Part shown: positions 1,961 through 51,008 of the stretch, piece by piece | Numbering within the stretch: the first letter of the stretch is position 1 | Layout of the letters: each line of letters opens with the position of its first letter | Assembly: GCA_015143295.1 (NCBI GenBank) | Contig: CM026570.1 | Location: forward strand, 2,628,047-2,692,046 | Direction of reading: 5' to 3' | Source of the DNA: Tetracentron sinense | Taxonomy: Eukaryota > Streptophyta > Magnoliopsida > Trochodendrales > Trochodendraceae | Length of the DNA stretch: 64,000 bases | Notes under the pieces: generated by a model | What the model saw: only the letters and a program-made list of their open reading frames with translations | Told to the model about the DNA's origin: nothing | The model's database searches: none | Position numbers and translations under genes: made by a program

Positions 1961-2325
1961 AATTAATTGAACTGGGTCACTATAATAAATGTTTATTAGC
2001 TAAGATGAGATGACTTGGTCACACTTGTGCATTGCATGGTTCTCCTCTACACTATAATCTTTGATTAAGTCTCTTACTCTTACTTCTCATTGCCAGTTGA
2101 CAATTTGCAGACATTAAAGAAAATGGGAATTTAAAAAGTAAACCGAAAAGATCAAAAGAAGTAAAGATTTTTATTTCAGGGAGGGTGATCAAAAAGATAG
2201 AATTGTTCAAAGTTAGACAGCATCAAGTTGCTGGTTAATTATTGCTTACAGCTGCACACGGTTTCATTTACAAAGTAAAACCCACCCTTCACTAGTCTTT
2301 GTATTTCTCTCTATGTTTCTCCATC

Positions 2326-2333
2326 TATAAATA
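2326..2333 (+). promoter_or_regulatory. TATA box of peroxidase copy 1
   Basis: TATAAATA lies 137 bases upstream of the ATG. The duplicate gene has TATATATA at the equivalent place (6254-6261). The surrounding promoter is alignable between the two copies from about 1965. Confidence 0.65.
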
Positions 2334-2469
2334 CTCAACTAGGATCCTTTGCTTCAACCCACCCATCTCCAGTTCTATCTGTCTATCTCCCTCAATAACA
2401 AAGCAGGCTGCCAATTAAGCTAGAAGATTGGGTTCCCTTGGTCTATCTCTTGCTCTTATATAAACCAAT

Positions 2470-3626: not shown

Positions 3627-3767
3627 GCTTTCCTAGCTTTACCACTACTGCAAATTCGGAATTGTTAGTATTCTAGCATTCTTTTGTTGTTTTTCCCTTC
3701 TTTATTGTCCTAATTCAAGTGTAAATTGATTTGGATAATTTATAAATTGAATGTTCAAACAGTCAAT
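3627..3767 (+). other. 3' region of peroxidase copy 1, ending at a duplication or insertion breakpoint
   Basis: This stretch aligns closely with 12295-12435 after copy 2 and includes a shared run ending GTTCAAACAGTC. Directly after it, copy 1 continues into Copia integrase sequence while copy 2 continues into unrelated sequence. The breakpoint is therefore at about 3766-3768. Confidence 0.65.
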
Positions 3768-5983: not shown

Positions 5984-6253
5984 TTGATTAAGTCTCTTAC
6001 TCATACTCCTCATTGCCAGTTGACATTTTGCAGACATTGCAGAAAATGGGAATTTAAAAAGTAAACCGAAAAGATCAAAAGAAGTAAAGAAGAATATATG
6101 AATTTTTTTTTTCATGGAAGGTGATCAAGAGATAGAACTGTTCAAAGTTAGACAGCTTCAAGTTGCTGGTTATTGCTTACAGGTTTACAGCTACACACGT
6201 TTTCATTTACAAAGTAAAACCAGTCTTTGTATTTCTCTCTATGTTTCTTCATC

Positions 6254-6261
6254 TATATATA
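6254..6261 (+). promoter_or_regulatory. TATA box of peroxidase copy 2
   Basis: TATATATA, 129 bases upstream of the copy 2 ATG at 6390. It aligns with TATAAATA of copy 1. The promoter therefore remains although the gene body is broken. Confidence 0.55.
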
Positions 6262-6484
6262 CTCTACTAGGATCCTTTGCTTCAACACACCCATCTCCTG
6301 ATCCAGTTCTCTTTGTCTATCTCTCTCAATAACTATTTCAATAGAAGATTGGTTAATTCCCTTGATCTATCTCTTGCTCTTATACCAATATGTCGAGCTT
6401 TTGGGGTTGTAAGATTCAAATGCCGACCCTGCTCTCTTGCTTGATTTTATTTTTCACTATATCCACAATGGCGTCGGTGTCATC

Positions 6485-6684
6485 TGTAAGATAACTTAGA
6501 GAGATGTGGCCGTGAAAACCTTGAGTGCCCTTTGAGGGTCTGCTCATAATATATATTGAAGAGATTGAGTTTACAGATAAGAGATAAGCATTAAGATAAG
6601 CTTACAGCAGAGAGTTGGTTACAGATTAGAGTCTATCTATACTAGGACTCTATCAGAGAGTTGGTTACAGATGGGACTCTATCA
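6485..6684 (-). repeat. 3' LTR of the intact Copia element
   Basis: 200 bp, beginning TGTAAGATAACTTAGAG and ending GGGACTCTATCA on the plus strand. One difference from its partner at 11044-11243. Confidence 0.97.
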
Positions 6685-6697
6685 TACCCCCTCAAAC

Positions 6698-9600
6698 TCA
6701 TGGTGGGCGAGCCATGAGTTTGCTTTGAAGAAACTGAAACTTTATCTTGGGAAGGCCTTTGGTGAAGATGTCAGCAATTTGCTGATGTGTGGAAACAAAT
6801 AGAACTCGAATGTCCCCCAAGATTACCCTTTCACGAATAAAGTGGTAATCAATTTCTATGTGTTTACTTCTGGCATGAAAAATTGGATTTGCCGCCATAT
6901 ACGTAGCACTGATATTATCACAATATAAGGTGGTCGGTGTCGAGAGAAATAACCCTAAATCTCGTAACAATGAGCGTATCCACAGAATGTCAGCAGTAGT
7001 GCTAGCGAGAGCTCGGTACTCAGCTTCAGCTGACGATCGAGATACAGTTGGTTGTTTCTTTGCACCCCAAGAAATTAAGTTGGAACCAATAAACACACAG
7101 TAGCCAGAAGTTGATCTTCTGTCATCCGGATTTCCAGCCCAATCCGCATCTGAGTATGCGGTAAGTTGGAAGGAAGAAATAGGGGATAGAAGTAGACCTT
7201 GATTAAGGGTTCCCTTGATATACCTTAAAATCCGTTTGGCAGCAATGAGATGATCTGAAGTGGGTTTGTGCATAAATAAGGAGACGTGATGAACAGCATA
7301 AGTTATATCAGGCCTTGTGAGGGTGAGATACTGTAAAGCGCCTACAAGTTGTCGATAGACAGTTGGATCATCCAAGGGTTGACCTTGTCTTACAGATAAC
7401 TTGGAACCAGAAGCCACAGGAGTCACAGATGGTTTGGCACCCGTCATGCCAAATTTGTCAAGAAGATCCAATGAATACTTTGTTTGGGTGAGAGAAAGAC
7501 CATCCTTGGTGGAAGAAGCTTCAATTCCAAGGAAGAAGTGAAGAGGCCCAAGGTCTTTCATTTCAAAGATGCGACTCAATTTGGATATGAAGGTAGTAAG
7601 CAAAATTCCAGCACTTCCGGTGAGAATGATGTCATCTACGTAAAGTAAGAGGACCATCATTCCTTGAGATGATTGGTAAATGAACATGTTGGAGTCTACT
7701 TTGCTGCAACGAAAACCAAACTCAAGTAGGTAGGTGCTGAATTTTTGAAACCAAGCCCGTGGAGCTTGCTTGAGGCCATATAGGGCTTTGTGCAACCGAC
7801 ATACATGAAGAGAGTGATTCTTGTCAATAAAGCCCGGAGGTTGTCGCATGTAAACTTCCTCATTGAGGTCACCATTGAGAAATGCATTTTTGACGTCGAG
7901 TTGCCGAATGGGCCAATGGTGGGTGACGGCAAGGGAGAGGACCATGCGAATAGTGGACGGCTTAACAACGGGACTGAATGTTTCACCATAATTGAGCCCA
8001 GCCTCTTGGTTGAATCCTTTAGCAACGAGACGGGCTTTGTACCGTTCAATGCGACCATCAGCGTGTTGTTTAACTCGAAATACCCACTTGCATCCAACGA
8101 CATTCATGGACGGCTTGTAAGGGACTAAGGACCATGTTTTGTTTTTGATCAAGGCGTTGAATTCTTCAACCATTGCTATCTTCCATTTTATATCCATTGA
8201 GGCTTGTGTAAAACATGATGGCACAGTTGGAATATGAGATTTAATGGCAAGCAAAGCAAGAGGGATTGGATGGCGAGAGCTAAAGCATTTTGGGGGGCCT
8301 GGTAACGTTCCATCCTTGGAACGAGTGTTCATGGCATGAGTGTTTATTGCAGGCTCGGGTTGAGTAGCAGGGGCTGAAGGCCCATCGTCATGGAGATCAA
8401 CAACCAAGTTGATAGCAGCAGCACCTGTGGGTAAAAATGGAACAGCAGAATCTGTTGAGGTGGCATTGTGTGATGGAGAAGCATTGGATGATGAAGATTC
8501 AGCTGCTATAGAGGATGGAGATGAACTAGTGGGTGTTGCAGCCAATGGACTATTGCTGGAATTATATAAAATTGCTGGAGCTGTGGTTAGTGGAATAGCT
8601 TGAGTGGAGGGCTGTTGCCGAGTTGGAGAACCAGCATGGATAAATCTGTAGCATGGAAAAGCTACTGTGTCTACAGATGAACCGCTTGGGCAATTGGAAG
8701 GAGTTGCACGGCTTGGGGCCTGAAATGGAAAAGAGTGCTCATCAAAGATAACATGCCGCGAGACATATACACGGCCAGTAATGGGATTCATACAACGATA
8801 TCCCTTGTGAAGGCTGCTATATCCCAAGAAAACACAATGAATGGACTTGGGACTAAGTTTATCATGGCGATAGGATCCCAAGAAGGGATAGCAGCTGCAG
8901 CCGAAGACCCGAAGGAAGGAGAAATCAGGTGATTGTCCATGAAGGATCTCATGAGGAGATTTGTGTTGATGAACCGCAGATGGGAGACGGTTGATTAAAA
9001 ACACTGCTGTTGATAAAGCCTCCAACCAATAGCATTTGGGCATGCTAGAATGAGCAAGAAGGGTGTTTGCCGTTTCAATGAGGTGTCGATGCTTTCGTTC
9101 GGCCACCCCGTTTTGTTCAGGTGTGTGAGGGCATGAGATCCTTTGGGTGATACCATTATTGTGGAGATAAATGGTAAACGCTGAACTGGTGAATTCACCC
9201 CCACCATCGCATTGCAAATGCTTCACTTTAGAACCAAATAAATTTTCAGCAATTTGACGAAATTTAATAAAGCATTCTAAGCTTTCAGATTTTTTTCTCA
9301 TGGGATAAATCCAAGTGAAGCGGCTAAAATCATCAATAAAGCTTATATAATACCGATAACCAGATGGACTTGGTACGGGTGAGGGACCCCAAACATCACT
9401 GTGAATGAGAAACAAAGGAGATGTAGAATCATGAATAACTTTATTAAATGGAAGTTTAGAGCTCTTTGAAATTTTACAATCTGAGCAAATAAACTTTTTA
9501 TTGCTTGGAAATAAAGGAAGACAATGATTTGAAACTAATCGAGATGTAACAGCATGAGATGGATGACCGAATCTCTGGTGCCAAACAGGAGCCGAAACTT

Positions 9601-11044
9601 TATTGCTGTAGAGAGCGACTTTGGGTGAAGAAGAGCAGCGACGAATTGGGTAGAGATTTCCATCAACCGGTCCTTCGAGGAGGAGCATCCCCGTTTTGAG
9701 ATCCTTAACACGAAAACCCCAAGGATAAAAGATGAACACACAATTATTTTCCCGAGTAAAATGAGCAACTGAGAGCAAATTTTTGGTGATATTAGGGACG
9801 AATAAAGTGTGACGGAGATGTAAAGTATTATGAAGAGAGGAAAGAGAGGCATTACCAACTTGAGTGATGGAAGCGGTAGAGCCATTACCAAGTTCAACAG
9901 AATCATTGCCCGAGTAGTCAGTGAGTTGATGGAGAAGGGTAGGATCATTGGTCATATGATGCGTAGCACCAGTATCCGGGTACCAATTTGGATCATACGA
10001 GTCTTGAGTGGTCATGGCTGCAAATGATTGAGGAAGAGAGTCTTCCTGGAAGACATAGTTGAAACGATGGCGGCATTGAAGGGCATGGTGACCTGGGCGA
10101 TCGCAAATTTGACAGATTGCTGGGGACCTATTGAGAGGAGAAGAACGACCCTGATTGAAGTTGGAGGAAGTGTAAGAGGGTCGACCATTGCCTCGGCTAG
10201 AACGGCCTTGAGAGGACTCACTATTGTTGCGGCCACGATTTGAGCTCTGAGAGAAGGAGCGATTGCCACGACCTCGAAACCTATTGCCATGATTGTTGTT
10301 TCGTGTGGTGTAGAGGGCAGTAGGCTGGGAATCTGTTCCAGCTAGAGGAGGATGAAGGTGAGCTAGCCGTTGTTCATGTTGAAGAAGGCGAGAACGCAAC
10401 TCCTCGAAGAAGATGGGTTCTAAGCGGTTTGTAATAGCCGTAATAAACGACTCATAGTCAGCAGGGAGGCCATGTAAAGTATGCTGAACCAGATCATCAT
10501 CAGATACGGGTTGTTGAATAGCCGCGAGTGAATCCGAGAGGCTTTTAATCTTGAGTAAGAACTCAGATATGGATGCAGTCCCTTTCTTGACTGTTTGAAG
10601 TTCGCCACGAAGGCGCATAGATTGAGCACAAGAGTGCTGGGAAAAAGTATCTTCCAGTGACTTCCATACAGCATAGGAGGAAGATAACCCAACCGTGTGG
10701 GCTAACACACTAGGGGTGAGGGTGGCATTTATCCAACTAAGGATAAATTGATCAGTCCGCCTCCAGGTATGGTATGCTGGATTTGGTTTGGCTCCAAGAA
10801 GTTGATCAGGTGATTTAATACTCCCATCTACATAACCAAAGAGATCCTGCGAGATGAGGATTGGTGTGATTTGGCTGCGCCGTAAGAGGAAATTCGAGCC
10901 ATCAAGTTTGATGGAAACCAATTGGCTGATGTTGGAGATGTTGAGAAGAACTGAAGAGGGAAAGACTTCGTCAGCAGAAGAGGGCGTATGTGGTTCAGTA
11001 GGAGTAGCCATTTCGGTGGTTTTGGATTTTGGTTCTGATACCAT
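6698..11044 (-). CDS. Copia gag-pol polyprotein, uninterrupted
   Basis: The open frame is 1,448 codons on the minus strand. In order it shows gag (UBN2-type), a CCHC zinc knuckle CQICDRPGHHALQC (about residue 312), the aspartic protease site YPDTGATHHM (about 355), integrase (HSDVWGPSPV about 546, CDGGGEF about 611, HTPEQNGVAERKHRH), reverse transcriptase (LDVKNAFLNGDL, then LLYVDDIILTG about 1135) and RNase H (AYSDADWAGNPDDRRSTSGY about 1297). This order (integrase before reverse transcriptase) defines Ty1/copia. No stops or frameshifts are seen. The first ATG overlaps the LTR end and primer binding site, so the real start is probably the ATG at 11011 (MATPTEPHTP). The product would assemble particles and copy the element into new sites. 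Confidence 0.96.
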   Translation of the reverse strand: MVSEPKSKTTEMATPTEPHTPSSADEVFPSSVLLNISNISQLVSIKLDGSNFLLRRSQITPILISQDLFGYVDGSIKSPDQLLGAKPNPAYHTWRRTDQFILSWINATLTPSVLAHTVGLSSSYAVWKSLEDTFSQHSCAQSMRLRGELQTVKKGTASISEFLLKIKSLSDSLAAIQQPVSDDDLVQHTLHGLPADYESFITAITNRLEPIFFEELRSRLLQHEQRLAHLHPPLAGTDSQPTALYTTRNNNHGNRFRGRGNRSFSQSSNRGRNNSESSQGRSSRGNGRPSYTSSNFNQGRSSPLNRSPAICQICDRPGHHALQCRHRFNYVFQEDSLPQSFAAMTTQDSYDPNWYPDTGATHHMTNDPTLLHQLTDYSGNDSVELGNGSTASITQVGNASLSSLHNTLHLRHTLFVPNITKNLLSVAHFTRENNCVFIFYPWGFRVKDLKTGMLLLEGPVDGNLYPIRRCSSSPKVALYSNKVSAPVWHQRFGHPSHAVTSRLVSNHCLPLFPSNKKFICSDCKISKSSKLPFNKVIHDSTSPLFLIHSDVWGPSPVPSPSGYRYYISFIDDFSRFTWIYPMRKKSESLECFIKFRQIAENLFGSKVKHLQCDGGGEFTSSAFTIYLHNNGITQRISCPHTPEQNGVAERKHRHLIETANTLLAHSSMPKCYWLEALSTAVFLINRLPSAVHQHKSPHEILHGQSPDFSFLRVFGCSCYPFLGSYRHDKLSPKSIHCVFLGYSSLHKGYRCMNPITGRVYVSRHVIFDEHSFPFQAPSRATPSNCPSGSSVDTVAFPCYRFIHAGSPTRQQPSTQAIPLTTAPAILYNSSNSPLAATPTSSSPSSIAAESSSSNASPSHNATSTDSAVPFLPTGAAAINLVVDLHDDGPSAPATQPEPAINTHAMNTRSKDGTLPGPPKCFSSRHPIPLALLAIKSHIPTVPSCFTQASMDIKWKIAMVEEFNALIKNKTWSLVPYKPSMNVVGCKWVFRVKQHADGRIERYKARLVAKGFNQEAGLNYGETFSPVVKPSTIRMVLSLAVTHHWPIRQLDVKNAFLNGDLNEEVYMRQPPGFIDKNHSLHVCRLHKALYGLKQAPRAWFQKFSTYLLEFGFRCSKVDSNMFIYQSSQGMMVLLLYVDDIILTGSAGILLTTFISKLSRIFEMKDLGPLHFFLGIEASSTKDGLSLTQTKYSLDLLDKFGMTGAKPSVTPVASGSKLSVRQGQPLDDPTVYRQLVGALQYLTLTRPDITYAVHHVSLFMHKPTSDHLIAAKRILRYIKGTLNQGLLLSPISSFQLTAYSDADWAGNPDDRRSTSGYCVFIGSNLISWGAKKQPTVSRSSAEAEYRALASTTADILWIRSLLRDLGLFLSTPTTLYCDNISATYMAANPIFHARSKHIEIDYHFIRERVILGDIRVLFVSTHQQIADIFTKGLPKIKFQFLQSKLMARPP
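11031..11043 (-). promoter_or_regulatory. Primer binding site of the intact Copia element
   Basis: TGGTATCAGAACC directly abuts the 5' LTR on the element strand, complementary to initiator tRNA-Met. The upstream A of the LTR end plus TG creates the first ATG of the long open frame. Confidence 0.85.
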
Positions 11045-11243
11045 GTAAGATAACTTAGAGAGATGTGGCCGTGAAAACCTTGAGTACCCTTTGAGGGTCT
11101 GCTCATAATATATATTGAAGAGATTGAGTTTACAGATAAGAGATAAGCATTAAGATAAGCTTACAGCAGAGAGTTGGTTACAGATTAGAGTCTATCTATA
11201 CTAGGACTCTATCAGAGAGTTGGTTACAGATGGGACTCTATCA
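11044..11243 (-). repeat. 5' LTR of the intact Copia element
   Basis: 200 bp, same ends as the partner at 6485-6684. It should carry the element promoter. Confidence 0.97.
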
Positions 11244-12294
11244 TCATCTGCATCTCTAAAAGTGGGCTTCTATGGATCAAACTGCCCTTCTGCGGAGATG
11301 ATTGTGCGAAAAGCTGTAAACAAGGTGGTGTCTCGCAATCCTGGCATAGCTGCAGGACTCATTCGGATGCATTTTCATGACTGTTTTGTTAGGGTACACA
11401 CTTTAGACTTGGTCTCTCAAAGCTTTTGGGTTTGTCTAAAGATTAGAGTTAAGAACTATTGTTACTGTGGTGGTGGTGCACTGGTACTAATCATGTTTCT
11501 GTTGTATTCTTTATCAGGGTTGCGATGCTTCAATCCTACTCGATTCAACACCAGGAAAAGAATCAGAGAAAGAACATCCTGCTAACAACCCAAGCTTGCG
11601 AGGCTTCGAGGTAATTGATGAGGCTAAGGCCCAAATTGAAGCTCTATGCCCCAAGACTGTCTCATGCTCAGACATCCTTGCCTTTGCCGCTCGTGATAGT
11701 GCCTTCATGGCCGGAGGAATCAACTATGCTGTCCCGGCAGGGCGTCGTGATGGACGGGTATCTCTCAAAGATGAACCTACTCAAAACCTCCCACCTCCTT
11801 CATTTGATGCCAAGCAACTCAAGGACAACTTTGCGCGTAAAGGGTTGTCTCTAGACGAAATGGTGACACTCTCTGGGGCACACTCAATTGGAGTTTCACA
11901 CTGTTCTTCCTTCTCAAATCGTCTCTATTCCTTTAATGCCACTCACCCACAAGATCCTTCTATGGATCCCAATTATGTAACCTTCTTGAAAACCAAGTGT
12001 CCTCCACCATCAAGCAATGGAGATGGCCGAGACCCGACAGTGCCACTCGATGTTCTAACACCCAATAGGTTGGACAACAAATACTATATGGGTTTGAAGA
12101 ACCATCGTGGCCTATTGACATCGGACCAGACTCTCCTGAGCAGCCCCTCGACCGCATGGATGGTGAGGAATAATGCAAAACATTCTTCTGCTTGGACCAA
12201 CAAGTTTGCAGCAGCAATGGTGCACATGGGTTCCATTGATGTTCTTACAGGCACCAAGGGTGAGATCAGGAAGAACTGTAGGATTGTGAATTAG

Positions 12295-12863
12295 GCTTTC
12301 CTAGCTTTACCACTACTGCAAACTCGGAATTGTTTGTATTCTTGCATTCTTTTGTTTTTTTTTTTTCCTTCTTTATTGTCCTAATTCAAGTGTAAATTGA
12401 TTTGGATAATTTATAAATTGAATGTTCAAACAGTCCCTGTAGAAGTGTGATAAAATGCAGGTTTTCATATTGAAGAAACCATTCAGAACAATATACCATT
12501 AATTTGATTCTTTAAACATGTAAACCATAGCCATATCCTATGAGGATCATTTTGTCGTCCACCAGGAGACAGCATGTCACTATACTCAATTACAATGCCA
12601 AAAATCTTGCAAGCATTGAAGACAACCCTCACCCTTTGAGGCTCAACGGCCCTTAAAAATACTCAAATCCGACGACTCTTGATTGGAGCTCCTGCAATGT
12701 TAGGCATTGTGACCGAGTGCATGATCACAAAGTTGGATCCAATATCGATTGTTTAGAGAGTTTATATCTTGAGATGATGTAATATTTATATAAACCCTCT
12801 ATGAGGTCATTGCAAATCATCCAAGAATGATCAATATTCAGTTTTTGTCAAGTAGGAGTTGTT
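12295..12863. other. 3' region of peroxidase copy 2 and unassigned flank before the CACTA element
   Basis: 12295-12435 is the duplicated 3' region. 12436-12863 has no recognisable gene. A stretch at 12602-12625 (AATCTTGCAAGCATTGAAGA core) recurs inside the neighbouring CACTA element at about 13120-13140. Confidence 0.45.
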
Positions 12864-12889
12864 CACTACAACAAAACACCCGCATAGCA

Positions 12890-13060
12890 ATGGAAAATTT
12901 CCGTGCTTAATATGACATTTCTGTGTCTAAAACTATTGGACACGGAAATAGTCACCGTGCCTAAACCGTGACAGTTGCTCTCGTCATTGATTCTATTAGA
13001 CACGGAAATAATTTTCCGTGTCTAATAATATTATTAGACACGGAATTATTTCCTTGTCTA
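12890..13060. repeat. CACTA subterminal repeats, left end
   Basis: Several copies of the motif GACACGGAAAT and its reverse complement lie close together (for example 12939-12949, 12999-13025 and 13033-13045). They match the right-end cluster at 23829-24080. Confidence 0.75.
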
Positions 13061-13729
13061 ATGATAATTATTCGTAAATGTAAAAACATATATGACGTCA
13101 CAATATTCGTAAATGTAAAAAATCTTGCAAGCATTGAAGACAATCCTACAATCGATTCAACCACCAGCCTCCAACCAAACTCCATCTCCTGTTCAACCAA
13201 AGAGCCAAAACAACAAGCAGTTTACCAACAGTGTAAGAAACTATATTAAGAAAAAGAAGTGTATATTATATAAAATTCATTGCCAATCTGACAGTATTTC
13301 CATTTTAATTAGGCAACCATAGTAAAGAAATGGGCAGAATAGCGAACCATCAGAGAGAAGATTTCTTTTAATCGGTGTCTTAGAAACATAATTCAACACA
13401 TGAAAAGCCATCAACAGTGTAAGAAAACAAATATCTATGGTCCATATATCCATAAATGGTAAAAAATGGGAAGCATGCATGCAAAGGATGGTTAGAAATT
13501 AGGCTTCCTTGACATGCATATTCTTCGAGTACTATCATTGGACATGAGGGCCTACTCTTGGCGTTTCAAATTTCCCATTTGTTTTTTTATTCCAAGTTTC
13601 AAATTTGAGGATGCATACTTACACAAGTTCAATATACTACCGTTCACTTAAAATTGTTTTAATGGAAGCAAAGGCATACCCTAAATGTGCGTGTCAGCAT
13701 AATATTACCTCATCTAAATCAAGCCGAGC

Positions 13730-13825
13730 TACTCAACAAACACTCTCATTGTCTACTAAATACTTATTAACAAACACCCCATCATTGTCTACTCAATATG
13801 TATTAACAAACACCTCCTCATTGTG
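13730..13825. repeat. Short ~35-bp tandem duplication inside the CACTA element
   Basis: The unit CATTGTCTACT(A/C)AATA followed by ATTAACAAACACC occurs twice. It has no recognised function. The rest of 13061-14480 contains no coding sequence I can support. Confidence 0.5.
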
Positions 13826-14482
13826 CCCATTTATAGAAAGAACCTCTAGTTGTAACAAATATACCTGTTTTGTTTTCTTCGAACCTTTGCACCCACAAAG
13901 ATGAGGTTGCCTAGATATGCCTTAGCCTCATCTATGAGACACTAAAGCTAGTCACAAAGGTGCCACAACTACATAAAATTAGATGTTATCTACTAAAACA
14001 TAAAGAACAAATATATACATATATATTTTTGTGTGTGTATATATACACACACATATATATGCGGCTAATATAATACTTTTTAATTGGAGAGATCCATATA
14101 TTTAACAAAGCACTGTCCAGTAGAGCTATGTGCTCATAGAACTATGAGTCTGTTGAATCCAAATGCTATCTTTCTAAAAAATGACACATCAATCAGTAGG
14201 ATATGAGCTCAAATATAATGAATGAAATAAATGACATGCCACTAGTGTCTTCTAATTATCATTGGTCAATCTAGAACACAAAAATATTATGATCAGCGGC
14301 CAGCCCAATTACAATAACATCTGGATTTCACAGTACAAGATACTGAGTCCAATCCTTCTCTCACATCCGAATAACATTCCACCAACAGGTTACAAAGTTC
14401 AACTAAGTTCATTTAGGACCTACCTAAGAGTACAAGAGCGAAATAGATTAAAGATGAAACAATTGGAGAGATCCCTTCTTAC

Positions 14483-14926
14483 CTGATCAATGTCAATCTT
14501 ATACGTGGTGACATGAGGGTATTTCTTACTCAACTCTTCTATAGTAGGAGTTATGAACCTGCCTACAAAAGATAAAACAATGGGACATTGATTCATTGAA
14601 TGATAAACGAATTCAAGCTATTTAACATTCATAGTTGAAAATCCAAATAAAACCCAATGAAAAAAAAAATTGTATTAAGAAAGCTACATGTTTAGGAGAA
14701 TCTTACAAGGTACACCATACTGCAGTGAAGTAGAAAATCGCAGACAATGGTTCATCTGAAAGAGAAAAAAATACATCAATGCCAGTAAAGATGTAAGCAA
14801 TCACAAGTTATCTACATATCAAAGGGAGTACCAATGGTATATTGAAAAAAACACCTTTACCTTGAACATTATTAATTGAACTATTGAACTGTTCTTCAGA
14901 CGTAATATAAACAATATTCGACGGAC
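14483..14926 (-). pseudogene. Captured thioredoxin o gene fragment (three exons) inside the CACTA element
   Basis: On the minus strand, three blocks each bounded by AG and GT are in consistent phase: 14926-14861 (PSNIVYITSEEQFNSSINNVQ), 14755-14707 (DEPLSAIFYFTAVWC) and 14562-14483 (RFITPTIEELSKKYPHVTTY, then KIDIDQ). Together they read as the N-terminal half of a thioredoxin fold, closest to plant thioredoxin o (mitochondrial or nuclear type), including the YFTA-WC-PCRFI-P active-site region. The first two introns keep canonical splice borders, so the source was genomic DNA, not cDNA. Two bases are missing in the Gly codon of the WCGPC active site, which shifts the frame. The transit peptide and C-terminal exons are absent. 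It is a transduplicated fragment, unlikely to make an active thioredoxin. Confidence 0.8.
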
Positions 14927-15524
14927 CTGAAATTAATTTAGCGACTTAGCACAGAATCTGACATTGGATTAAAAAAAAAATTAGCAAAAAACATTAAATG
15001 ACTATTACATAGGGTAACTACTATAGATTCTAAATCTAATCAACAACAAATATCCAACTGCCCTAGTAAAACAACATGTCTTATAGATTCTGAATCTAAT
15101 CAACAACAAATATACGTGTTAGTAACCTATACATATAAATCGAAATAAATTTATTTTTAACAGTTATAATGGCAATTGAAACTTTTATCTACCTGATCGG
15201 AACGTCAATATGTCAGGATGTTAAAGACATCCTATGAAAGGTTAAAATCAAAGTACACAATTAATCAACAGAAAATGCATACACATAATTAATTTTTGTC
15301 ATAATCTCTCAACAATATGAACAAAATAAAAGTGAAGTCTGGTGTAACTCTTCACATGCCAACCAAGCATGTGAAGAAAAATCTCTAATCAAGGGGGAAA
15401 TCGGAGGTCTGGGTGGCATTGTCATCATGAGTCGGGTGGAACTGGGATGGTCCCCCGGGGTAGGACTGGAATGTCCTGGACTGAGATGGTGTACTAGGGA
15501 AGGATGGGAATCCCCCAGTCTGGA
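14927..15524. other. CACTA interior without recognisable gene
   Basis: AT-rich sequence. Near 15020-15115 the segment TAGATTCT(A/G)AATCTAATCA, with the bases that follow, occurs twice. The G-rich stretch 15387-15525 directly abuts the transposase remnant and may be the far side of an internal deletion. Confidence 0.4.
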
Positions 15525-16741
15525 AGAACTCTGCTATCAGTCCACAGATCTAATAACTCATCTACAAGTGGTTGTAAATATACATCAATGTCATTACTAG
15601 GAGCACGAGGACTAGAAATAAGTAATGACTTCATCAAAAAAGGTTGCTTCATACACATCTAAGGCGACAAATTAAATGGAGTCAAAACAATAGGCCAAGT
15701 ACTGTGTGCGATGCTAAGGGTACCAAATGGATTAAAACCATCACTTGCTAACCCAACTCTAACATTGCCAAATTCTGCAGCAAATTCATGGTATCGTTTG
15801 TCAAGATGTCGCCAGGCTTCAAAGTTGGCTAAATGCCTTAGAACCCCATCTTGGGTGCGACCCTCTGCATGCCATCTCATGGAACCAGCTGTCTTGTCTA
15901 ACATGAAAAGTCTTTGAAGTTTGGGCTTTAATGGAAAATGATGTAAAACTTTTGCTAGAATTCTGTCTTCCTTCCTAGACGATGGCGTTATACAGGAGTC
16001 CGCAATCTTCTACTGTGAAATTCCACAAACGAAACATGCAATATCATTGACATTTTCCTTCCCGTATAACATGTAATCGTTTGGGCATGCATCAATCATA
16101 TTGTAATCAAGACCTAATTCTCCGATTATCTTTTTCGTTCAGTAGAAGGATGCAAGCAAAGTCTCACTCTCGGGAAGTGCCTCTTTCAGTAACTCAAGTA
16201 ACATCGTGAATGATTTGTCGCTCTATCCATTCAGACACTTAATGTTATATAATTAGACAATAAAAGACAGTTTACTAAATTTTTTACATGCGGGATACAA
16301 ATCTTGCTCGATATCTTCTACTAACTTATAGAATTTTGTGGCTTTTGCGTTGGGAGTCTCTCTTGTTTCACTTGGTCCCTCATCGACTGTCACTTTGTTT
16401 GCATGATTGGGCCTGAATGCTGCGTGCAACATCTGTTGCATATCATCTATTATAGGGTTATTCACGTCTCTCACCAATTGGGCAATTGAAGATCTAGGAT
16501 GCGGTCTTTTCCAGTGGAAAATCCACGTAGCCATGACATAATACTTATCGAATCCATCGTAAATCAAATGCTCGTACACACTGTGTCGTATCCAATAATA
16601 TCGATTACTACATTTTTTACAGGGACACTTGATAGTACTGTCAGGTTGTCGTGTCTGACTAAATGCAAAATCCAAGAAATTGTTCACACTCGTTATATAT
16701 ATATTACTTCATCTGTTTGCAGAAACCCAACTTTTATTCAT
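15525..16741 (-). pseudogene. CACTA tnp2-type transposase (TNPD) remnant
   Basis: Read on the minus strand, MNKSWVSANR at 16741 is followed after a stop by NNFLDFAF and CPCKKCSNRYYW, the transposase-associated Cys-rich domain at the start of plant TNPD proteins. Further on, with several in-frame stops, come LPESETLLASFY, KKIIGELGLDYNMIDACPND, RWHAEGRTQDGVLRH, VRVGLASDGFNPFGTLS, STWPIVLTPFNL and DIDVYLQPLVDEL, all standard landmarks of the tnp2 family. The protein breaks off near LLDLWTD at about 15525, so the remainder of the transposase is missing. Stops at several positions make it non-functional. Any movement would need transposase in trans. Confidence 0.88.
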
Positions 16742-18504
16742 AGTTACTTTATAAGCTCTCGCAATCACTAATAACAGAAGACAATATATACCTGTCATTA
16801 GTGAATGATACGGAAATGACATCGGAATAATTAGGGTAATGCATGCATGCACCATGATTATTGACTACTTATTGAGTGGGGTGTTTCTATCCCATTCAGG
16901 AATACATAATCCTCAAGAATCACTACCGCACGTGCTTTGTTTAATTTTAAAAAAATTTCGGTAGCATCTCCCCATGGCTCTCCAAGTACACAATTAAGAC
17001 AAGGGGCAGATGCATTCCTTGTCCAAATAGGTACCTAGAGAACAATAGGGATGACTGACGAAAATATTCCCAAAATTGAGTGTGCATGGGCGACTAACAC
17101 ATGCTTCGGGATTATGTATTCCCCAACTGTACACGGACAATTTAAGAATGATTTGGCAGACAAATACTCCTCTTGACATATAGGATAGATCAGTTGTTAG
17201 AGGCAATGTAGTCCACATAGGAACTACACATCGTAATCTATAACGAATCCGTCGATAGTGATGGTAAGAGAGACACTTATCCGACAATGATTCTTGAACG
17301 GGAGATCTAAGTTTCAATGCATGCACATTCACAATGACCTTGAAGAATGCAGGAATCATTATGGGTCTTACAGTTGAATTTCTCATAACTGTAAAATTAT
17401 AATCAACAGAAATCCTATCAATAATCTAAACCAACCTACATTCATGATCAATATAAAATTATAATAATCGATATTAGGCAATGAACATAATATTTAGCAA
17501 AAATAAAAATAAACATAGCATGTTCAATACACTTGAGACAAACAAGAACACAACTAACCTTAACGAGATAGTAGTAATTATCCATAAACATAGCAAAGGA
17601 ATTTATGCTACTTTTGTTGTCCTGCATGTTTTCAATTGGTTGGTGACCATAAAATAAGCTAGACTCATAACCACATCATAAAAGTGGGGGGGGGGGAATC
17701 CCCACCCCACTTTGCAAAATCCATTCCACATATCCACAACTATAAGTTAACTTAAATCCACCATTTAAGTTAAATGATCGATACTATTTTGACTATGTGA
17801 ATGATAGATAATCTCATATATCAAATACCCCGTGCAATATTAGACACGAAAAAAGACATAATTTTTTTTTTTAATATTATAAATTAGACTTTATTATCTT
17901 ATATTTTTTTTTGCTAAATATCATTTTATAATTCAAACATGAAAAAGTATAGAATAGGGATACATGCAAATAAGTTATTAAACTAAGTTACTAACCTATG
18001 ACAAACTATAGAGAGCCATTTTAGTTTTAATTAATTTAGATTTTGAGAACCTAAGAATATCAGTTAATTTGAAAAGCAAATAGAAGTCTGAGTTTTGATT
18101 CTTACCAAAAGTTTTAAATATTTACTCACACTAAAAAAATCAAATACCACAATTAACTTTGCTCTTGTTGAAATAATATGACACTCTAAACCCAACATTG
18201 AGATTTGCTAACGTGACTTCCCGGAATGTGACTTTGTGTATATCTAACCACAATTTTCAGACATCCTGATAGAAATGAAAATCAACAAATTTGAAATAAA
18301 ACAGGAGAATGAAAGTAATTTAAAATAGATAATCAATATGGGCATGCATAACACAACATGACATTGAAATGTAATATAAAACAACAATTCAAAACTAAAG
18401 TACCCAAAATGAATTGAATAGACAAATCTATAAAAAACAAAAAAATTATACATTGTCTAATGATAATATTGGGAACCATCCATTGTTGCGGAAAATTATG
18501 AATA
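16742..18504. other. CACTA interior, 5' of the transposase remnant
   Basis: A minus-strand open stretch of 130 codons (17386-16994) lies here but resembles no family I recognise. A poly-G run (about 17684-17697) next to CCCCACCCC forms a small inverted repeat. One more GACACGAAA subterminal-like motif is at about 17845. No gene is supported. Confidence 0.4.
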
Positions 18505-18509
18505 AGTAA

Positions 18510-20608
18510 TGTCGCGCCCCAAAATCCCACCTAACTTAATGTGAGACCTTGGCCTGTGACTTAAAACATTAATTCCATAACTTCTTGTCCTACAACATTT
18601 AAGGCAATTCTAAAAACATTGACCTAAAAAATTTTCTCTTCAAATAAATGCTAATCAAATCTAATATTTGAAATAAATACTAAGACATCATAATTAATTA
18701 AAATCTTCCTCTATAAATCCCTAATCATAAATTCAAACTAACTATAAATCCAAAATTAGTCTATTACAAGGTCTAAAATTCAAAATCTAAAATACTAGTG
18801 ATCTAATGTCTAGAGTATGACCAGCAATCCAAATTCCATTCTCCATCAGGGTAATCACCTGTTGGCTCTTCCTTCTCCTCCTCGTACTCTTCCTCCTCCC
18901 AATGTCTTGGAGCACCAGTATCAAAACTATAACTTGCCGACAACAACAGTCATCGGCTGAGTAACAAGTTACCCAGCGTATATACAAAATCCTATCTAAC
19001 AATATAACGATATTTAATATGAACATGGTTTAAGATTTCAACATAACATGTACACATATAACAATTCAGAATGCGGAAGCATAATTAAATTTCAATTCTT
19101 ACACATGATCACTTGTGCTTATTTCTCTTGTTTATCTTACTTATTTTCTTGTCCGTGAATTTATCCAACAACATACGAATGCAATAACTTAATATAACTC
19201 TACCCCATATATTGGGTAGAGACTAACATATACCCTACTTTCCGAGGTACCATACAATATACACATTATCCGGTGTATACGGCTTGTCTACACATTATCC
19301 GGTGTATACGGCTTGTCTACACATTCGCCGGTGTATACGACTAGTCTTGCCTTGATCATAGGCCTATGGGTACTCGGTCAGTGCAAAACTCAATCATGCA
19401 TAATGCTTGTGTCCTTGTGTACTTGCATAATACTTGTCATCTTGTTTCTTATTATCATACTTGTTCATGTCCAATTTCGTGAATAAGTGCGAGTGAAATA
19501 ACGATAATTATAAATCATTCACAATTTAAACATGTAGAAATTCTCATAATTGATCAACATAAAATATGGGTTTATCAAGTTTTCGACAACAAAGATAGGG
19601 ACAATGTAATTCATCATGTCTCAAGTTCCAATACATAATTTAATTAAATTAATATCTCAAAACCCTAGTTTATAAAATACTATAATTTCAAAACAACATG
19701 GAATCACTCCATCAAATTTAACCATCATCACTTCCTCCATTCTTCATCACACAATAAACCACAAGATCATTCTATTTCCTCTTATTGATATAATAATTAA
19801 ATCACAAGAACATCTTTAACATCATCAGTATCTTTCGCAAGGAAATCATAAATTTAAACTCTCTAAACATCATATATAATTCCTATGAGGAAATCATGAT
19901 CTAAAGCATTCTCAAAATCATCATATATATTTTCCATAAGAAGATCATGATTAAAACACTCTTTCTAAAGTCATATATATTTTTCATACGAAATCATAAT
20001 TTAAAAACATCACATGTATGCTTAATTTTGCTTGTTCTTGCTTTAGATTTATCACTTTCATAATTTTATATCAACATCACTATATTGAAAGGAAGGAAGT
20101 TATATTTACCTCTCATGATCGTTTCTCTACGATCACGCGCTTGCGAATGGGGTTGATCTACACTTTTTCGCCATTTCTTATTGAAAAGCCTTTAATCTCC
20201 CATCTTGGATCTCTCAAAAATCTCTTCTCTCACTCTCTTTTAGGTCTACAAAGCTTTAGAGACCTTTCAAAACCCTCAACCCACGACTAAAAGGGGTATA
20301 TATAGTGTTGGGAGCCCTACGGACTCCACAAAAGAGAGATCGCGCAAATCCGCTGTCGAACGGTGTTTTGGGCGATCGATCGCCGGCGATTTTTTTTTTT
20401 TAAAACTCTTTTGCTACTTTTTGATTTTCTTTCTTTTCATGCAATTTAACCTCAAAACGACTTGAATTTAGCGTTTTATTTGGGTTTTAAAATCACTACA
20501 TTTCGCATTAAATTTATAGGCTTAAAAACATTAAACAATTAAACACATGTTTTCACAGCATTTAATAAAGTTCACAAACATTAAGAATAATAAATTCGGG
20601 TCTCTACA
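18510..20608 (-). mobile_element. Solo LTR (about 2.1 kb) of a long-LTR retrotransposon, minus strand
   Basis: On the minus strand it begins TGTAGAGACCCG and ends GGGGCGCGACA, and it is flanked by a perfect 5-bp target duplication AGTAA (18505-18509 and 20609-20613). No primer binding site, polypurine tract or polyprotein is present, so it is a solo LTR left by LTR-LTR recombination. A TATATATA promoter signal is near 20292-20305. A 29-bp unit around GGTGTATACGGCTTGTC is repeated three times (19261-19346). LTR ends and a TACTCAGCC block match the solo LTR at 21155. The long LTRs suggest a Ty3/gypsy chromovirus of the Del/Tekay type, which is inference. Confidence 0.85.
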
Positions 20609-20929
20609 AGTAAATTATTTGAAACACATAATTTATTCTTTTAAGGACTCATAGTTTTATGTAGAGGGCTTATTATTTAATTTAAAAAAAATCATGATTG
20701 GGCTAGTAATTAGGGTTTCTAATCAACAACTATTTTTTAGCTTAAATGAAATGAAATCATACAAACAACAATCCTACAAATATTGGTCAAACAAATCCAC
20801 TAGTTCATCAGGGAAAAAAAAAGTAAGAACATAAAAATTAATACATACCTAGCAAACAAGGGTCTGAGTGGCGTGGAGTTTGTGGCGCTGATGAACTTGC
20901 ACAGAGTCTAAGTGAGTTAGATAACATAG

Positions 20930-21108
20930 AGAAAGAGAGAAATTAGAGCAGAGAAAAAGATAGAGAGAGAGAGAGAGCTCGGTAGAGAGAGACAGAGAGA
21001 GAGAGGTCAGTAGAGAGGGAGAGCGTGAGAAACAGAGACAGTAGAGGGATAGAGAGAGAAGGAGAGCTCGGTAGAGAGAGAGTAAGAGAGACAAAGACAG
21101 AGAGAGGA

Positions 21109-21154
<46 letters not shown>
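20930..21154. repeat. GA-rich microsatellite tract
   Basis: A long imperfect GA array with interspersed GGTAGAGAG units, becoming a pure (GA)n run at about 21115-21154. The second solo LTR begins directly at its right edge. Confidence 0.9.
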
Positions 21155-21156
<2 letters not shown>

Positions 21157-21639
21157 TAGAGACCCGAATCGTTTTCATGTTTTTATTTCATTGTGTTAAG
21201 GGTATTTTAGTCCTTGTGATGTTTGATGTTTATTGTTTTTTTTTATGCCTAATTATTGTGGTGTAAACTAAGCTTAATCAACTTGTAACGGAGGGACGTC
21301 ATATCACACCCTAAACTTTAGGAAGCTCTAGTTTTAGCACCGTTTACTGGAATTGAGTGATTCTTGAACCATTAGAAAGGTGTTGGAACCCTCTTCGAAG
21401 TTCATGTTTAATGTTTTTCCTTATTTTGAGTTTAAGCCAAGTCAATGGTGGGTTTTATTTAATGGAAATGCAGATCAGTCAACTTTGGGGATAATTTAGT
21501 CTATTAATTAAGTGGAAATTAGAAATTCTAAAATGCCAGAAATGTTCGTTTTCGAAAGACGAATCCAACGCAAGTTGAATCGTCAAAATCCGTCGAACGA
21601 GTCAAAAGTTATGGCCAAAACAGTAAAGTGAGTCGAAAC

Positions 21640-21832
21640 AGAGCACCAATCGCTCGGTCAGAAGCAGCGATCGATCGGTCCAAAACCGATCGATCGGTAT
21701 CTATCGACTGGTCCAGAATTTTGTATGGGGAAAATTTCCAGAGAGTGCTTTTTTGACCGATCGACCGGTCAAGAGAACCGATCGCTCGGTTGAGAACCGA
21801 TCGCTCGGTCATAACCACCGATCGCTCGGTCC
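21640..21832. repeat. Array of GATCG(A/C)(T/C)(C/G)GGT palindromic motifs in the solo LTR
   Basis: At least nine copies of the decamer core CGATCG(A/C)(T/C)CGGT or its complement, several being the palindrome ACCGATCGATCGGT, within about 190 bp upstream of the LTR TATA signal. Confidence 0.75.
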
Positions 21833-22794
21833 TTCGTGTTTTTGCAGAATTTTAGTAAGGGTTTTTTGGTCTTTTGTTCTCAGACCTTGGGGCTATAAAT
21901 AGGGGGTCCTACTCGAAATATTAAATACTCTACCTATTTCTAACCTAATTTGGCAAAAAGGGGAAGAAACCCTAGGGTTTTGAGAGAGGGTTTTCTTGGA
22001 GAAGGAGGAGATTGATAGGAGATTGCAAGAAAAGTTTGGGAAGCTTCTCCAAATCGTTTCGGGAGCGTTTTGAATCCAAGGGAAGGATTTCTAAGGTCGA
22101 TATACTATCCTAATCAACTTTATTTTAAGGTTTTGTGAATGTTAAGATGCTAGGAATGGTAGAAATAGATGTTTGATGCATTTTCCCTAATTTTCTAAGA
22201 AGCAAGCTAATTATGGATGGATATGTGGATTGGAAATGTGGGTTAAATGTGGATAGAATGTATGGAGGATGCGAAATGTATGGAGGATGGGATTAATTTG
22301 TGGATGTGGATGAATATATGGATTGTATGGATGGAATTATGATTTGATGAATGCATGAAAATGTAGAAAAACAATGGATTCATATTATGTGTACTCAAGG
22401 TGTTTGTGAAAATGTCTGTGAGAATAAATGCTATGATACTTTTATGAAATGGTGGTAAATGGATTATAAATGATGTTAAGAATTATGATAAGAAATATAT
22501 ATGTGATTGTTTGTTAAGTATACTTAATTACTTGCATGGGAATTGATAGTCGGGAAGGTAAGAACTTAGAGGAACATCTCTCAAACCGGGAATTCTCTAA
22601 CTATTTGGTATGGGACATATAGTGGAGTTTCCATGGTGGGAGATCGGAATCTAAGCAATTACCAACTCGAATGTTAATTTCGACACTTAAGTACACAAGC
22701 ACGTGTATGTTAAGATAAGAGTCTCACAAGTCACACATGTGGACCACAAGCATGAGCATGACATATGTATGACATTCTGAATAAGCATAAGCAT

Positions 22795-22925
22795 GACATG
22801 GTCTGTATCCGCCAAGAACGGCATGTCAACCTGATTCTTAGACATGGTCCGTATCCGCCAAGAACGACATGTCAACCATATGATTTCTAAGGCATGGTCC
22901 GTATCCGCCAAGAACGGCATGTCTC
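22795..22925 (+). repeat. Threefold tandem repeat in the solo LTR
   Basis: The unit CATGGTC(C/T)GTATCCGCCA, followed by AGAACGGCATGTC, occurs three times with 50-60 bp spacing. Confidence 0.8.
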
Positions 22926-23688
22926 ATTACTGTGTGATCTGAATAAGTGCATAAGCATAAACATCTCACAAGCACGTGGTCTCATAAGCATAAGCAACTC
23001 ATAAGTGTATTGTCTTCCAAGTCTAAGATTCTCACAAGTACACGAGTCAAGGTGATGATATGATGTATATGCGCACACGTTCTTCCGCACTCTGATTATG
23101 TTATTATGCTATTGGATATGTTTTTGACTAAGTACAGGTATATCATTATTGTTGATTGGATTTTATATACACTGAGTACCTTTGTACTCAGCCGGATTTT
23201 GTCTTGGCAGGTATAGAGCAGGAGTACACGGCAGAGCCGTGGGTTGAGGAGACTTACCTCGAGAAAGGAGGTGAAGGTGAGCCTTCTGAGGAGGGAGCCG
23301 GAGACTTGGGCGGCTACACCTCTTAGTTTTTATTTCATTTGATTGAGAGAGTTGTATTGGACTTGAGTAGATGTTGCTCAGTAGACTTTTATGGTTGTGT
23401 ATCAGACTTTTTGGATTTAGTAGTCGTAATTGTTGACTATAGACTCGTGTTATTTAGTTGGTTTGGGTTATATATATCGGAAATTTTATTACTCTCATTT
23501 TTGAAGACTCGTGTAGTAGCCTTGTATGCATGGTTTTAAGCAGGTTTAAGTAATGTGGCGATTCCAAAGTCCTATTTTAGCCTTGTAGGATTTTGGGGTC
23601 GTTACATAGAGACTTACAATGGTGGTCGGAGCTGGTCGGCTGCGGTGATCAGAGCAGGTCGGCGGCGGTGGTCTGGCCTGGTCGGAGA

Positions 23689-23689
<1 letters not shown>

Positions 23690-23723
<34 letters not shown>

Positions 23724-23741
23724 GCTCTAAAGAACAATTTT

Positions 23742-23772
<31 letters not shown>

Positions 23773-23778
23773 GGGAGG
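23690..23778. repeat. (GA)n, poly-T and poly-G run
   Basis: A (GA)n stretch of about 28 bases is followed, after about 20 bases, by a T run of about 14 and a near-pure G run of more than 20. The exact length is likely unreliable in any assembly. Confidence 0.85.
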
Positions 23779-23828
23779 GGAAGCCGATAGGTTTCGCGGG
23801 TTAGGAATCAAAAAATTAATACGATAGT

Positions 23829-24080
23829 ATTAGATACGGAAATATTTCCGTGTCTAATGATCATTTATATTAGACACGGAAATTTTCCGTCACTAACACC
23901 AACATCCGTGTCTAATACTATTAGACACGAAAAATCTACCGTCTCTAATAATAAATGTATTAATCATAAAATTGATATAAATCTTGGAATAAAAATTAGA
24001 TACGGAATCTTAGCGACGGAAAACTTTCCGTGTCTATAAATAGGTAGTAGACACAGAAAACTTTCCGTGTCTATAATTCC
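23829..24080. repeat. CACTA subterminal repeats, right end
   Basis: At least eight copies of TTAGA(C/T)ACGGAAA or TTTCCGTGTCTA in both orientations, matching the left-end cluster and ending 28 bases before the CACTA terminus. Confidence 0.8.
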
Positions 24081-24108
24081 ATTGCTATATGGTAGATTTC
24101 TTGTAGTG

Positions 24109-26780
24109 ACATTGTTCCCCCCCTCCCCCCCAAAACCACAACAGAAGCTTATATAGAAAAGGATATATAGACAATGATAAGTATAGATATCCAAACTAAT
24201 CTAGACATAATCTCGTTAGATATCCAACCTAATATATACTAATCATATAAGATTATCCATGGGATACTGTGTCTCTTAGATATTTCATTATTATTCTCCT
24301 AATGTAATATTTTCCTCATATATACAAAGTTCACCTCTTTACACTGTTGGAGCTTCAATAGATGGTTGAGCCATTGAAGAAGTTGTAGGTTGCCGGGGTG
24401 ACCCAATTCAGAAACTGGTCTGAGTTGCATGGAAGTCATGGGGAGTTTGTCTACGTAGTCTGTCTGCATGGTACAATGTAAATCGAAGTGGACCACTAAG
24501 TGTTACAATTTACGTAAGGATCTGCATCAGTACTGGTTGTTTCACTGTTGCCCGAAAGCCAAGATTTCGCCATGTTAGTAACCACCGTGGTGATCATATT
24601 ACGGAAGTAGAGCAGCCCCTTTTGTGGGCTAGCCACTGCTGGTCCATTCCAATGATTTTTATTTTTTATTTTGTTAAAGATAATTATGAACAGGAGCTCT
24701 GGTTAATTGAAGAGAAAAAAGCAAGTGTATAGATTTGAATTTGAAATAGATTATGATGAAGTAGTTCGATTTAATTAGGATTAGATTTGATAGAATTTCT
24801 ACTTTAAGATGATGTAATATCTATATTAACTCGTTAAATTGAGCAAAATTCATGATGTCCAAACTTAGATTGGCAAACCGCCGCATACCTCAATGCTTCA
24901 AACGATGGCTTCGGCTTTTACGCCTCAAGAAACGAAAACGAAAACGAGGAAAAGAAGGGATTGTCTGCTTGAAGGGCTGCCATGCATGGTGGAACTGAGA
25001 TTGATGTAGAGAGTCTTGGGTGGAGGCATGATTTTTTTTTTGTGGTAATTGGGTGGAGGCATGATTGAAGTGGTATATGTGGAGGATAGTTATGTTGGGG
25101 ATACCCCGCACCAAACGTTCCGCACCATTTCGGTAGTTCTAGTATAGAGATTTGAATTCCATTTCTATACATGTATGCTTTAGCCCTTAGTTTAACTAAC
25201 TAATTGATGATGGTGCATGCGCTATAGAAGCTCGAAGGAGGCCTATTGATCCATAATGGCAATGCCCGTCTAGGACCGTCATTCTGGCCCTCCAATGAGG
25301 GTACCCCTGACCCAGCCTAGAGTTACCAAACACCTGTACTATACTCGTATAGTACATGTATAATACTTTTAGGGGGTTCATCGTTTAAAACTGTCTATTT
25401 TTATCATGTTACGCATTATACCCGTATCGACATATAATATCCATTTAATACTCAAATTACATATTATACGTATACAATATGCATATTTTTATCGAATTAA
25501 ACGCATATTCTGTATTAAATGATTGTTATTAGTTAATATCATAATATTTATTTATAATCATTAATTATTTTTTAATTTTCCTGTTCTTTTATCATGTTTT
25601 TGCCATATAACACCCGTATTTTTTAAACAGATCATTATTGTATTATACCTGTACTTGATAATTGGCCCCAACCCAACTATGCCAAAAAAAAAAAAGTGAG
25701 TCTTTTTTTTTTTTCATATAGCTTGCATGACTTTTTGGGCCAAAAAATTTAGGCCTGATAACATGAGGGCAGTGCTCATACTATATACCCTCCCTTTGAC
25801 CTATTTTTATTCCTTTTTCCAATTTGATTTAAAACAAATCCTTAAACGTCATGACATTTTTTTTTTAAATCTTCTTTCAAGCCCAAGCCAGCCCCCTTAT
25901 AGTAGAGTTGGGCCTGGGCAATACAAGACCTCAGAGGGCATGGGCCGGACCTTACAAGTGAGAGGTAGGTTCGATGCGTCGTAAATCAAACAGTCATTCC
26001 CTGAGGCTGACCTAATATACACTCGAAAAAGACCTAAGGAAACCACTGTTTGTGAGTGCATAGCATCACAGGTTTGGCCCGGAATCCAGTCCCGTGACGG
26101 GGTGCGTGGTTGAAATCTTAACCATTTACTAACTTGGAACAATTGAACCAATAATAACCCTGCCGACTAGAGAGTGGCAAAAAAAAGAAAAAGAACTATG
26201 GAATACACTTACACTTGGGCAGCACTTTGGTGTTACCAATCACTCCCTGCTTGGAGTGAGTGACACGATCTAAGCTTTGATTTCTCTAAATAGATCCCTG
26301 ACCAAGCAATGGACGACAGATGAGTGAGTTAGATGAAGTTTCATGTTGCACCATGCTACCTAATACCACCTGACACGCAAAAAATGAATGAGTTAAATGA
26401 GAATTAAATAAAGTTAGTTGGGATTCAGAAAACATAATAAATTCATATTAAAATCATCAGAGGAATCGTTGGCGGCCCATCAGCCACCTAACTCATCTAG
26501 ATTGGGTTGATTTTATCTTCTGCCCCTGATATCTCCGAAATTCCAAATATGTCCCTTTTTTTCAAGACTGCCATGCACAAGAAGTCATAATCCGAAACAT
26601 AGGGGATAGGATTGACATTACAATGCAGGACTAGGATGGCAAGTTGGCACCAAAGTCAAAAGTTCTTGAGGGCAGATTGAATGACTGACACATCTCTAAT
26701 CATTCTAAAAATGGCGAACACATCCTTGAAGGATCAGCCACCACTCCCTCATCCTTTTGCCATGCAGTAGAGCTTTATGA
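24109..26780. other. Intergenic region right of the CACTA element
   Basis: AT-rich. A minus-strand stretch at 24650-24502 reads without stops as LYFRNMITTVVTNMAKSW, then LSGNSETTSTDADPY, and ends at a stop. It looks like a terminal exon remnant but I do not recognise it. Around 25900-26160 is sequence of the kind found in decayed retrotransposons (CCCGTGACGGGGT, GGTTGAAATCTTAACC). No complete gene is supported. Confidence 0.4.
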
Positions 26781-50620: not shown

Positions 50621-51008
50621 GTTGGGATCTTATTCGTTACTTGTTAGCATCAGTGTCACTATCATCTCAAATTTTCTTACAAAGAACAGTAGAGCATTTC
50701 CTGACCCGATTTTTACGGTTCGGGTTAATGTTTTTGACCCTATAAACGAACCAAATTTTGTTTTGTTCAACTTCAACCCCATTTTGTAATCGGCTTTAGG
50801 TTGAGCTCCACAGACCCGGTTGAGCTCCCGACCCGATTGGTTGGAAGGATTTTTAAACAGCCAACAAAGAACAGAAATCTCACGTTTGAAATTAGAAAGA
50901 GAGAGATTTTCTAATTAGATATTAGTCTCACTAATTAGAAACTATTCTTCCATTTTATTTCTATTAAAGAGCCTCAGTTCTATGATCACAAATCTCAAGA
51001 ACTGAAAC
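50621..51008. other. Upstream region of the MADS-box gene
   Basis: No other gene. GACCCG and GGTTCGGGTT segments (50700-50850) look like old transposon sequence. No clear TATA box was identified. Confidence 0.35.

Follow-up and report, generated by a model that had tools for sequence, protein, structure and literature searches.

The capture of host gene fragments by CACTA transposons is already known. In soybean, Tgm-Express1 is described as a CACTA element with five host gene fragments that are spliced into chimeric transcripts (PMC1947982), and in Chenopodium, CACTA elements are reported to hold captured AP2 and Neprosin fragments (PMC8978399). In the 64-kb stretch of Tetracentron sinense DNA analysed here (the window, C20:2628047-2692046), a thioredoxin o case is found that is new and unusually completely documented; no published report of a CACTA element with a captured thioredoxin o, or any captured thioredoxin, was found in the literature searched. 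A decayed transposon of the CACTA (En/Spm) type occupies the locus and carries a host gene piece acquired by transduplication. The preferred reading, to which a probability of roughly 0.93 is attached, is that the thioredoxin o piece was captured once in what is now a decayed CACTA element, by repair, and then spread as cargo.

The window element resembles Tgm-Express1, as the latter is described, in its CACTA-type ends and in keeping host fragments as exons with their introns, but it holds one identified gene fragment and a tnp2 remnant, is known from DNA sequence alone, and has a mapped parent and six mapped sisters (PMC1947982). With the Pack-CACTA, or Pack-TYPE, elements it shares host coding DNA lying between CACTA terminal repeats, with the parent elsewhere (PMC8903248). 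Pack-TYPE elements are, however, described as non-autonomous (PMC8903248), whereas the window family keeps transposase remnants, in some copies as larger ORF pieces, and its tnp2 remnant places the window element outside a strict definition of Pack-TYPE (Pack-CACTA), which allows no transposase similarity. The Chenopodium elements, as reported, likewise contain short host gene fragments, one of which is common to the elements of three species (PMC8978399). Those fragments precede the first ORF, in the 5' part of the element (PMC8978399), whereas the window cargo lies 3' of the transposase remnant.

The element occupies positions 12864..24108 of the window (11,245 bp, on the minus strand in transposase sense), and is bounded by a left terminal inverted repeat, CACTACAACAAA..., at 12864..12895 on the plus strand, and a right one, CACTACAAGAAA..., at 24077..24108 on the minus strand. 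The terminal arms (12863-12895 and 24077-24109) are 82% complementary, and the ends at 12864 and, inverted, at 24108 have zero mismatches to CACTACWASAAA. Subterminal repeats of the GACACGGAAA type, in both orientations, lie at 12887..13063 on the left, and the same motif recurs in repeats at 23824..24085 on the right. Within the 64-kb window, the motif TAGACACGGAAA, taken in both orientations, occurs only beside the ends 12864 and 24108, a confinement which indicates that the two ends belong to one family. However, the 3-bp flanks, GTT and ACA, differ, and the insertion signature is therefore absent at the window locus. An earlier sequence-only reading, in which a CACTA element had been proposed here, is thus borne out by the mismatch-free ends and the common subterminal motif, but not by a matching 3-bp target site duplication in the window copy. 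The possibility it had raised against itself, that the ends come from two unrelated elements, runs against these common subterminal repeats and against sister copies C10 and C19, which are built alike and sit between matched duplications.

In the surroundings of the element, the intervals 2061-3764 and 5984-12435 are presumably tandem class III peroxidase copies, as read from ORFs at 2823-3626 and 11491-12294. The second copy is interrupted by a Copia-type-looking element at 6485-11244, the 201-bp end repeats of which are 100% identical, implying a recent insertion. A further ORF, at 51006-51695, encodes what we take to be a type I MADS-box-like protein.

The captured segment of the thioredoxin o gene lies at 13878..15049 on the minus strand and corresponds to C3:5013102-5014250 in the parent (89.6% over 1192 aligned columns). 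It includes three exons, all on the minus strand, that equate to parent exon 2 (14861..14926, 66 nt), exon 3 (14707..14755, 49 nt, from which 2 nt of the WCGPC codons are missing) and exon 4 (14483..14562, 80 nt), and the intervening introns are 105 and 144 nt long. The splice borders that the sequence-only reading had called intact are AG/GT at six out of six positions. Its thioredoxin o-like identification also holds, the joined exon translation having Arabidopsis Trx o1 (4e-17) and Trx o2 (3e-16) as its top PDB matches, with the next thioredoxin at 3e-5; 34 of 60 residues are identical to Trx o1 when the damaged motif is excluded. Arabidopsis thioredoxins o1 and o2 (PDB 6g61, 6g62) are the closest solved relatives of the fragment and of its parent. 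Compared with these proteins, the window fragment has no leader and no intact WCGPC, and it lacks the C-terminal 47 residues; a search with this part of Trx o1 found nothing convincing across the 64-kb window (best E 0.60).

The claim of matching exon phases stands only in part. The first and second captured exons fit in phase and the second and third do not, with the WCGPC codons of the middle exon being 2 nt shorter in the window than in the parent and in all six sister copies (C6, C20b, C10, C24, C12 and C19). Because of this loss, use of the normal acceptor shifts the frame and leads to an early stop, while an alternative AG 4 nt downstream leaves the frame open with GPC missing; the redox site is gone from the predicted product of either acceptor. 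Judged on its sequence, the window copy is no functional thioredoxin o gene, the C-terminal half being absent and the WCGPC codons damaged.

A complete thioredoxin o gene with the same introns, the parent that the earlier reading had suggested looking for, is present on contig C3, at C3:5012874-5034744. Its six exons (C3:5012874-5013066, C3:5013203-5013268, C3:5013369-5013419, C3:5013566-5013645, C3:5015884-5015928 and C3:5034646-5034744) encode a protein of 177 aa with an intact WCGPC and the stop in place. The best PDB match of this protein is Trx o1 (7e-46 over the mature part), and it aligns to positions 3 to 102 of 103 of the Pfam Thioredoxin profile; the leader we take to be mitochondrial, from its composition and family. 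The C-terminal exons were sought by a protein search with the Trx o1 stretch, which gave matches 21 and 36 kb past the C3 exon matches, and exon 5 was picked from AG...GT candidates ranked by their match to Trx o1/o2. The candidate ranked first scored 39 (start 5015887) or 37 (start 5015884), followed by a next place at 22, and exon 5 accordingly has two candidate acceptors, 5015884 and 5015887. A second copy of the last exon, open and stop-terminated, lies 15 kb past the first, at C3:5049933-5050031 (L046), and is either a partial duplication or an alternative last exon. Descent from another thioredoxin was considered and rejected: a thioredoxin protein search of the genome yielded 27 matches (48 of 48 candidates scored), and at the eight best other loci among these (L023-L030) the best stretches are 27-54% identical to the parent protein and were read as other thioredoxin types.

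The genome searched comprises 1.16 Gb in 1479 contigs, and the fragment has at least nine matches in it, namely the window, C3 and six other loci, with C20b represented by two pieces (all nine first-look candidates were scored). The cargo is present in at least seven CACTA copies: the window, C6, C20b, C10, C24, C12 and C19. The search for further copies with the same cargo, also suggested by the sequence-only reading, thus returned six besides the window. When 20 kb were examined around each of the seven non-window loci, left-end or left subterminal sequence was found to be common to the window and the six sister loci, with C3 lacking it. A tnp2 stretch is common to the window, C6, C20b, C10, C24 and C12, and is absent in C19 and C3. 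Both ends are in view in four of the seven copies (window, C6, C10 and C19), and the cargo lies between the ends in all four; two of these four have matched 3-bp target duplications (CAA in C10, AAT in C19), and the 3-bp flanks of C6, TGT/GTG, are unmatched. For the remaining copies, the left end of C24 is mutated, C12 shows a left end only within its 20 kb, and C20b has subterminal sequence only.

The junctions of the cargo speak to the number of captures. One edge falls at C3:5013102 in all three copies that retain that side (window, C6 and C20b), the other at C3:5014249-5014250 in all four that retain it (window, C6, C20b and C12), and both edges have been lost from C10, C24 and C19. In addition, all seven copies have 12 nt in common for which the parent has no counterpart. 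Separate capture by each copy is ruled out by the common surviving junctions together with this common 12-nt difference, and the simplest account would be a single capture followed by spread. What was captured is a continuous 1,149-bp genomic stretch that runs from within intron 1 to within intron 4 and takes in exons 2-4 and the introns between them. The presence of introns shows that the template was DNA, as the sequence-only reading had argued from the retention of host introns that are now seen to be those of the parent in the same genome. A 32-nt repeat, its units 60 bp apart, spans the 5' edge of the captured segment (window 15022-15113), and is possibly a trace of slippage during capture.

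The transposase of the window copy is represented by a tnp2 remnant at 15533..16708, on the minus strand and hence, as had been claimed, on the same strand as the exons. It matches Transpos_assoc (1e-16) and the first half of Transposase_21 (1e-40, profile positions 1-105 of 213), and is interrupted by several stops; in sister copy C12, the Transposase_21 match reaches 4e-76. Next to it, at 15340..15540 on the minus strand, is the 3' tail of the presumed second ORF of the element, which has a homologous ORF in C20b. In C20b this second, TnpA-like ORF matches Transposase_24 at 8e-5, under the family cut-off, and the window tail matched no family in the profile search. The longest of the stop-free stretches in the sister elements is 307 aa, and among these stretches, introns left aside, no open full-length transposase was seen.

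The window copy is a deletion derivative carrying two nested LTR-like inserts. Compared with C6, ~4.9 kb are missing at a junction at 15533..15538, a part of the transposase region that the window copy would have lost later, and a second deletion of ~0.6 kb lies near 13108. At this second deletion, a 36-nt stretch at 13112..13147 (plus strand) resembles the element's own left flank outside the element, matching 12594-12629 at 33 of 36 positions, as against 24 for the best control among 1000 36-mers drawn from the element. The stretch is read as a probable templated filler copied from the flank, which suggests that repair at the window element can copy nearby host DNA into the element. The nested inserts, both of the TG...CA type and both absent in C6 and C19, lie at 18510..20608, with a 5-bp duplication (AGTAA), and at 21155..23606, where the flanking 5-mers are alike at four of five positions. 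A stretch related to the latter insert is found in inverted orientation near the C10 locus, outside the C10 element. To look for further host genes in the right-hand half of the element, 10 of 31 listed ORFs of at least 55 aa were scanned, and none gave a match at a family cut-off. The sequence at 13519-13876, beside the cargo, has several similar stretches on C13 (between 5.6 and 7.6 Mb), local duplicates among them, and is perhaps another dispersed piece acquired by the element; inspection by eye of one such stretch, L051, revealed no obvious gene, and we do not propose a second capture at this place.

Other members of the CACTA family, for which the genome gave at least 71 matches with 40 of 196 candidates scored, bear on how the cargo came to lie where it does. 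Four of them (L049, L050, L052 and L053) have no thioredoxin within the stretch examined; they resemble the window from ~15044-15048 rightward, with other sequence in place of the cargo. To the left of the junction, L049, L050 and L053 have a further 145-170 bp in common, L052 only ~35 bp of it, and the stretch common to L049, L050 and L053 was not found by blastn in the window or in C6. As this stretch is missing from the window and C6, the host DNA seems to have replaced native sequence rather than simply been inserted, a reading that rests on four relatives, one with only ~35 bp. No pre-capture ancestor was found among the family members compared. The events may thus have begun with a break or excision gap inside an ancestral element, repaired by template switching with the thioredoxin gene as template, so that the piece would have been copied in once, in place of native sequence. 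The cargo would then have been carried along as the element multiplied, and the window copy would subsequently have acquired its two LTR-like inserts and lost 2 nt from the active-site codons. The repair mechanism itself is inferred from the junctions.

The cargo might instead have been enclosed by the route described for Arabidopsis Pack-CACTA elements in a review (PMC13317346), and for other Pack-TYPE elements in a further account (PMC8903248), whereby two related elements flank the exons and aberrant excision fuses them around host DNA. Such a fusion is unlikely here: TAGACACGGAAA is found in the window at the two outer ends and is absent at the cargo edges, the cargo is internal and adjoins a transposase remnant and an ORF tail, and the 70 kb scanned around the parent contained neither a CACTA-end pattern nor GACACGGAAA, while two tnp2 pieces found no counterpart there by tblastn. 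Repair is preferred over fusion on these grounds, and the short repeat across one cargo edge and the flank-matching filler are both more repair-like. That C3 is a further copy of the element is rejected, since exons 1, 5 and 6 lie outside the captured segment and no element remnants were found in the same 70 kb. That the exons of the window instead belong to a native thioredoxin gene, whole or partial, with CACTA elements inserted in or beside it, would agree with the lack of a matching target duplication in the window copy but is hardly credible, given that the C-terminal 47 residues of Trx o1 are not convincingly found in the window, that pieces of the same segment are carried by six other CACTA copies, and that the complete gene is on C3. 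A native gene split by the element is refuted by the C-terminal part having no convincing match in the window and by the full gene on C3, and a complete gene extending from these exons beyond the CACTA boundaries, the outcome the sequence-only reading had named as fatal to it, did not appear.

A different question is whether the cargo has been retained for a function, with small RNAs or a chimeric product regulating the parent thioredoxin gene. Of the 177 21-mers in the spliced exons 2-4 of the parent, 71 are perfect in the window copy and 86 in any copy, and captured sequences of maize Helitrons, Pack-MULEs and Sirevirus elements are described as siRNA reservoirs, CACTA elements being unnamed in the corresponding part of that review (PMC13317346). 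Sequence identity of this kind makes small-RNA action on the parent no more than a possibility, and the cargo is damaged in all seven copies while the parent is intact. The window copy has the 2-nt loss in the middle exon, C6 has an altered GT donor of the middle exon, C20b has a stop in the first exon together with a LINE-like insert (~15-bp duplication, poly-A), C10, C24 and C12 are each short of 1 nt in the middle exon and of most of the first, and in C19 the first exon is deleted. The LINE-like insert of C20b (L011, L012) is ~6.3 kb long and lies inside captured exon 2, and C10, C24 and C12 break directly beside the spot of this insert. Summed over the seven copies, differences to the parent number 88 in 1153 exon columns and 259 in 3934 intron columns; at the codon level, 74 differences change the residue, two of them to a stop, and 6 are synonymous, with many counted more than once because of common descent. 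Exons thus diverge about as fast as introns, with no sign of exon retention, and a regulatory role seems quite improbable. With the window copy broken, a protein role is also unlikely, and most likely no working thioredoxin is made from it. At most, the exons of the fragment could become part of a read-through transcript, or small RNAs matching the parent could arise from it, and its effect is most likely that of passive cargo.

The parent, junctions defined nearly to the base, seven copies, and relatives with other sequence at the same place together make a good natural record of host-DNA uptake. The locus also carries a warning for annotation, in that three clean-looking exons, which could pass for those of a real gene, belong to a dead fragment, the complete mitochondrial-type gene being on another contig. 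With regard to the family as a whole, an exon past the junction in L050 (C22:1065001-1066200) matches AtFKBP42, or TWISTED DWARF1 (TWD1), at 4e-20. The FKBP42-like peptide occurs at eight places in the genome (nine of nine candidates scored), three of them with stops, and two of these places, on C22 and at C13:11189544, lie ~235 bp from matches to the CACTA family of the window; no parent of the exon was identified among the eight. Thioredoxin o thus does not seem to be the only host gene that the family has taken up in this region. Tentatively, and with the odds somewhat against it, the region that extends from the second-ORF tail to the left terminal region may be a recurrent landing place for host DNA, with the thioredoxin o piece in one lineage, the FKBP42/TWD1-like exon in another, and the later flank filler of the window copy nearby. 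If this is true, break repair would have brought host DNA into the family time and again.
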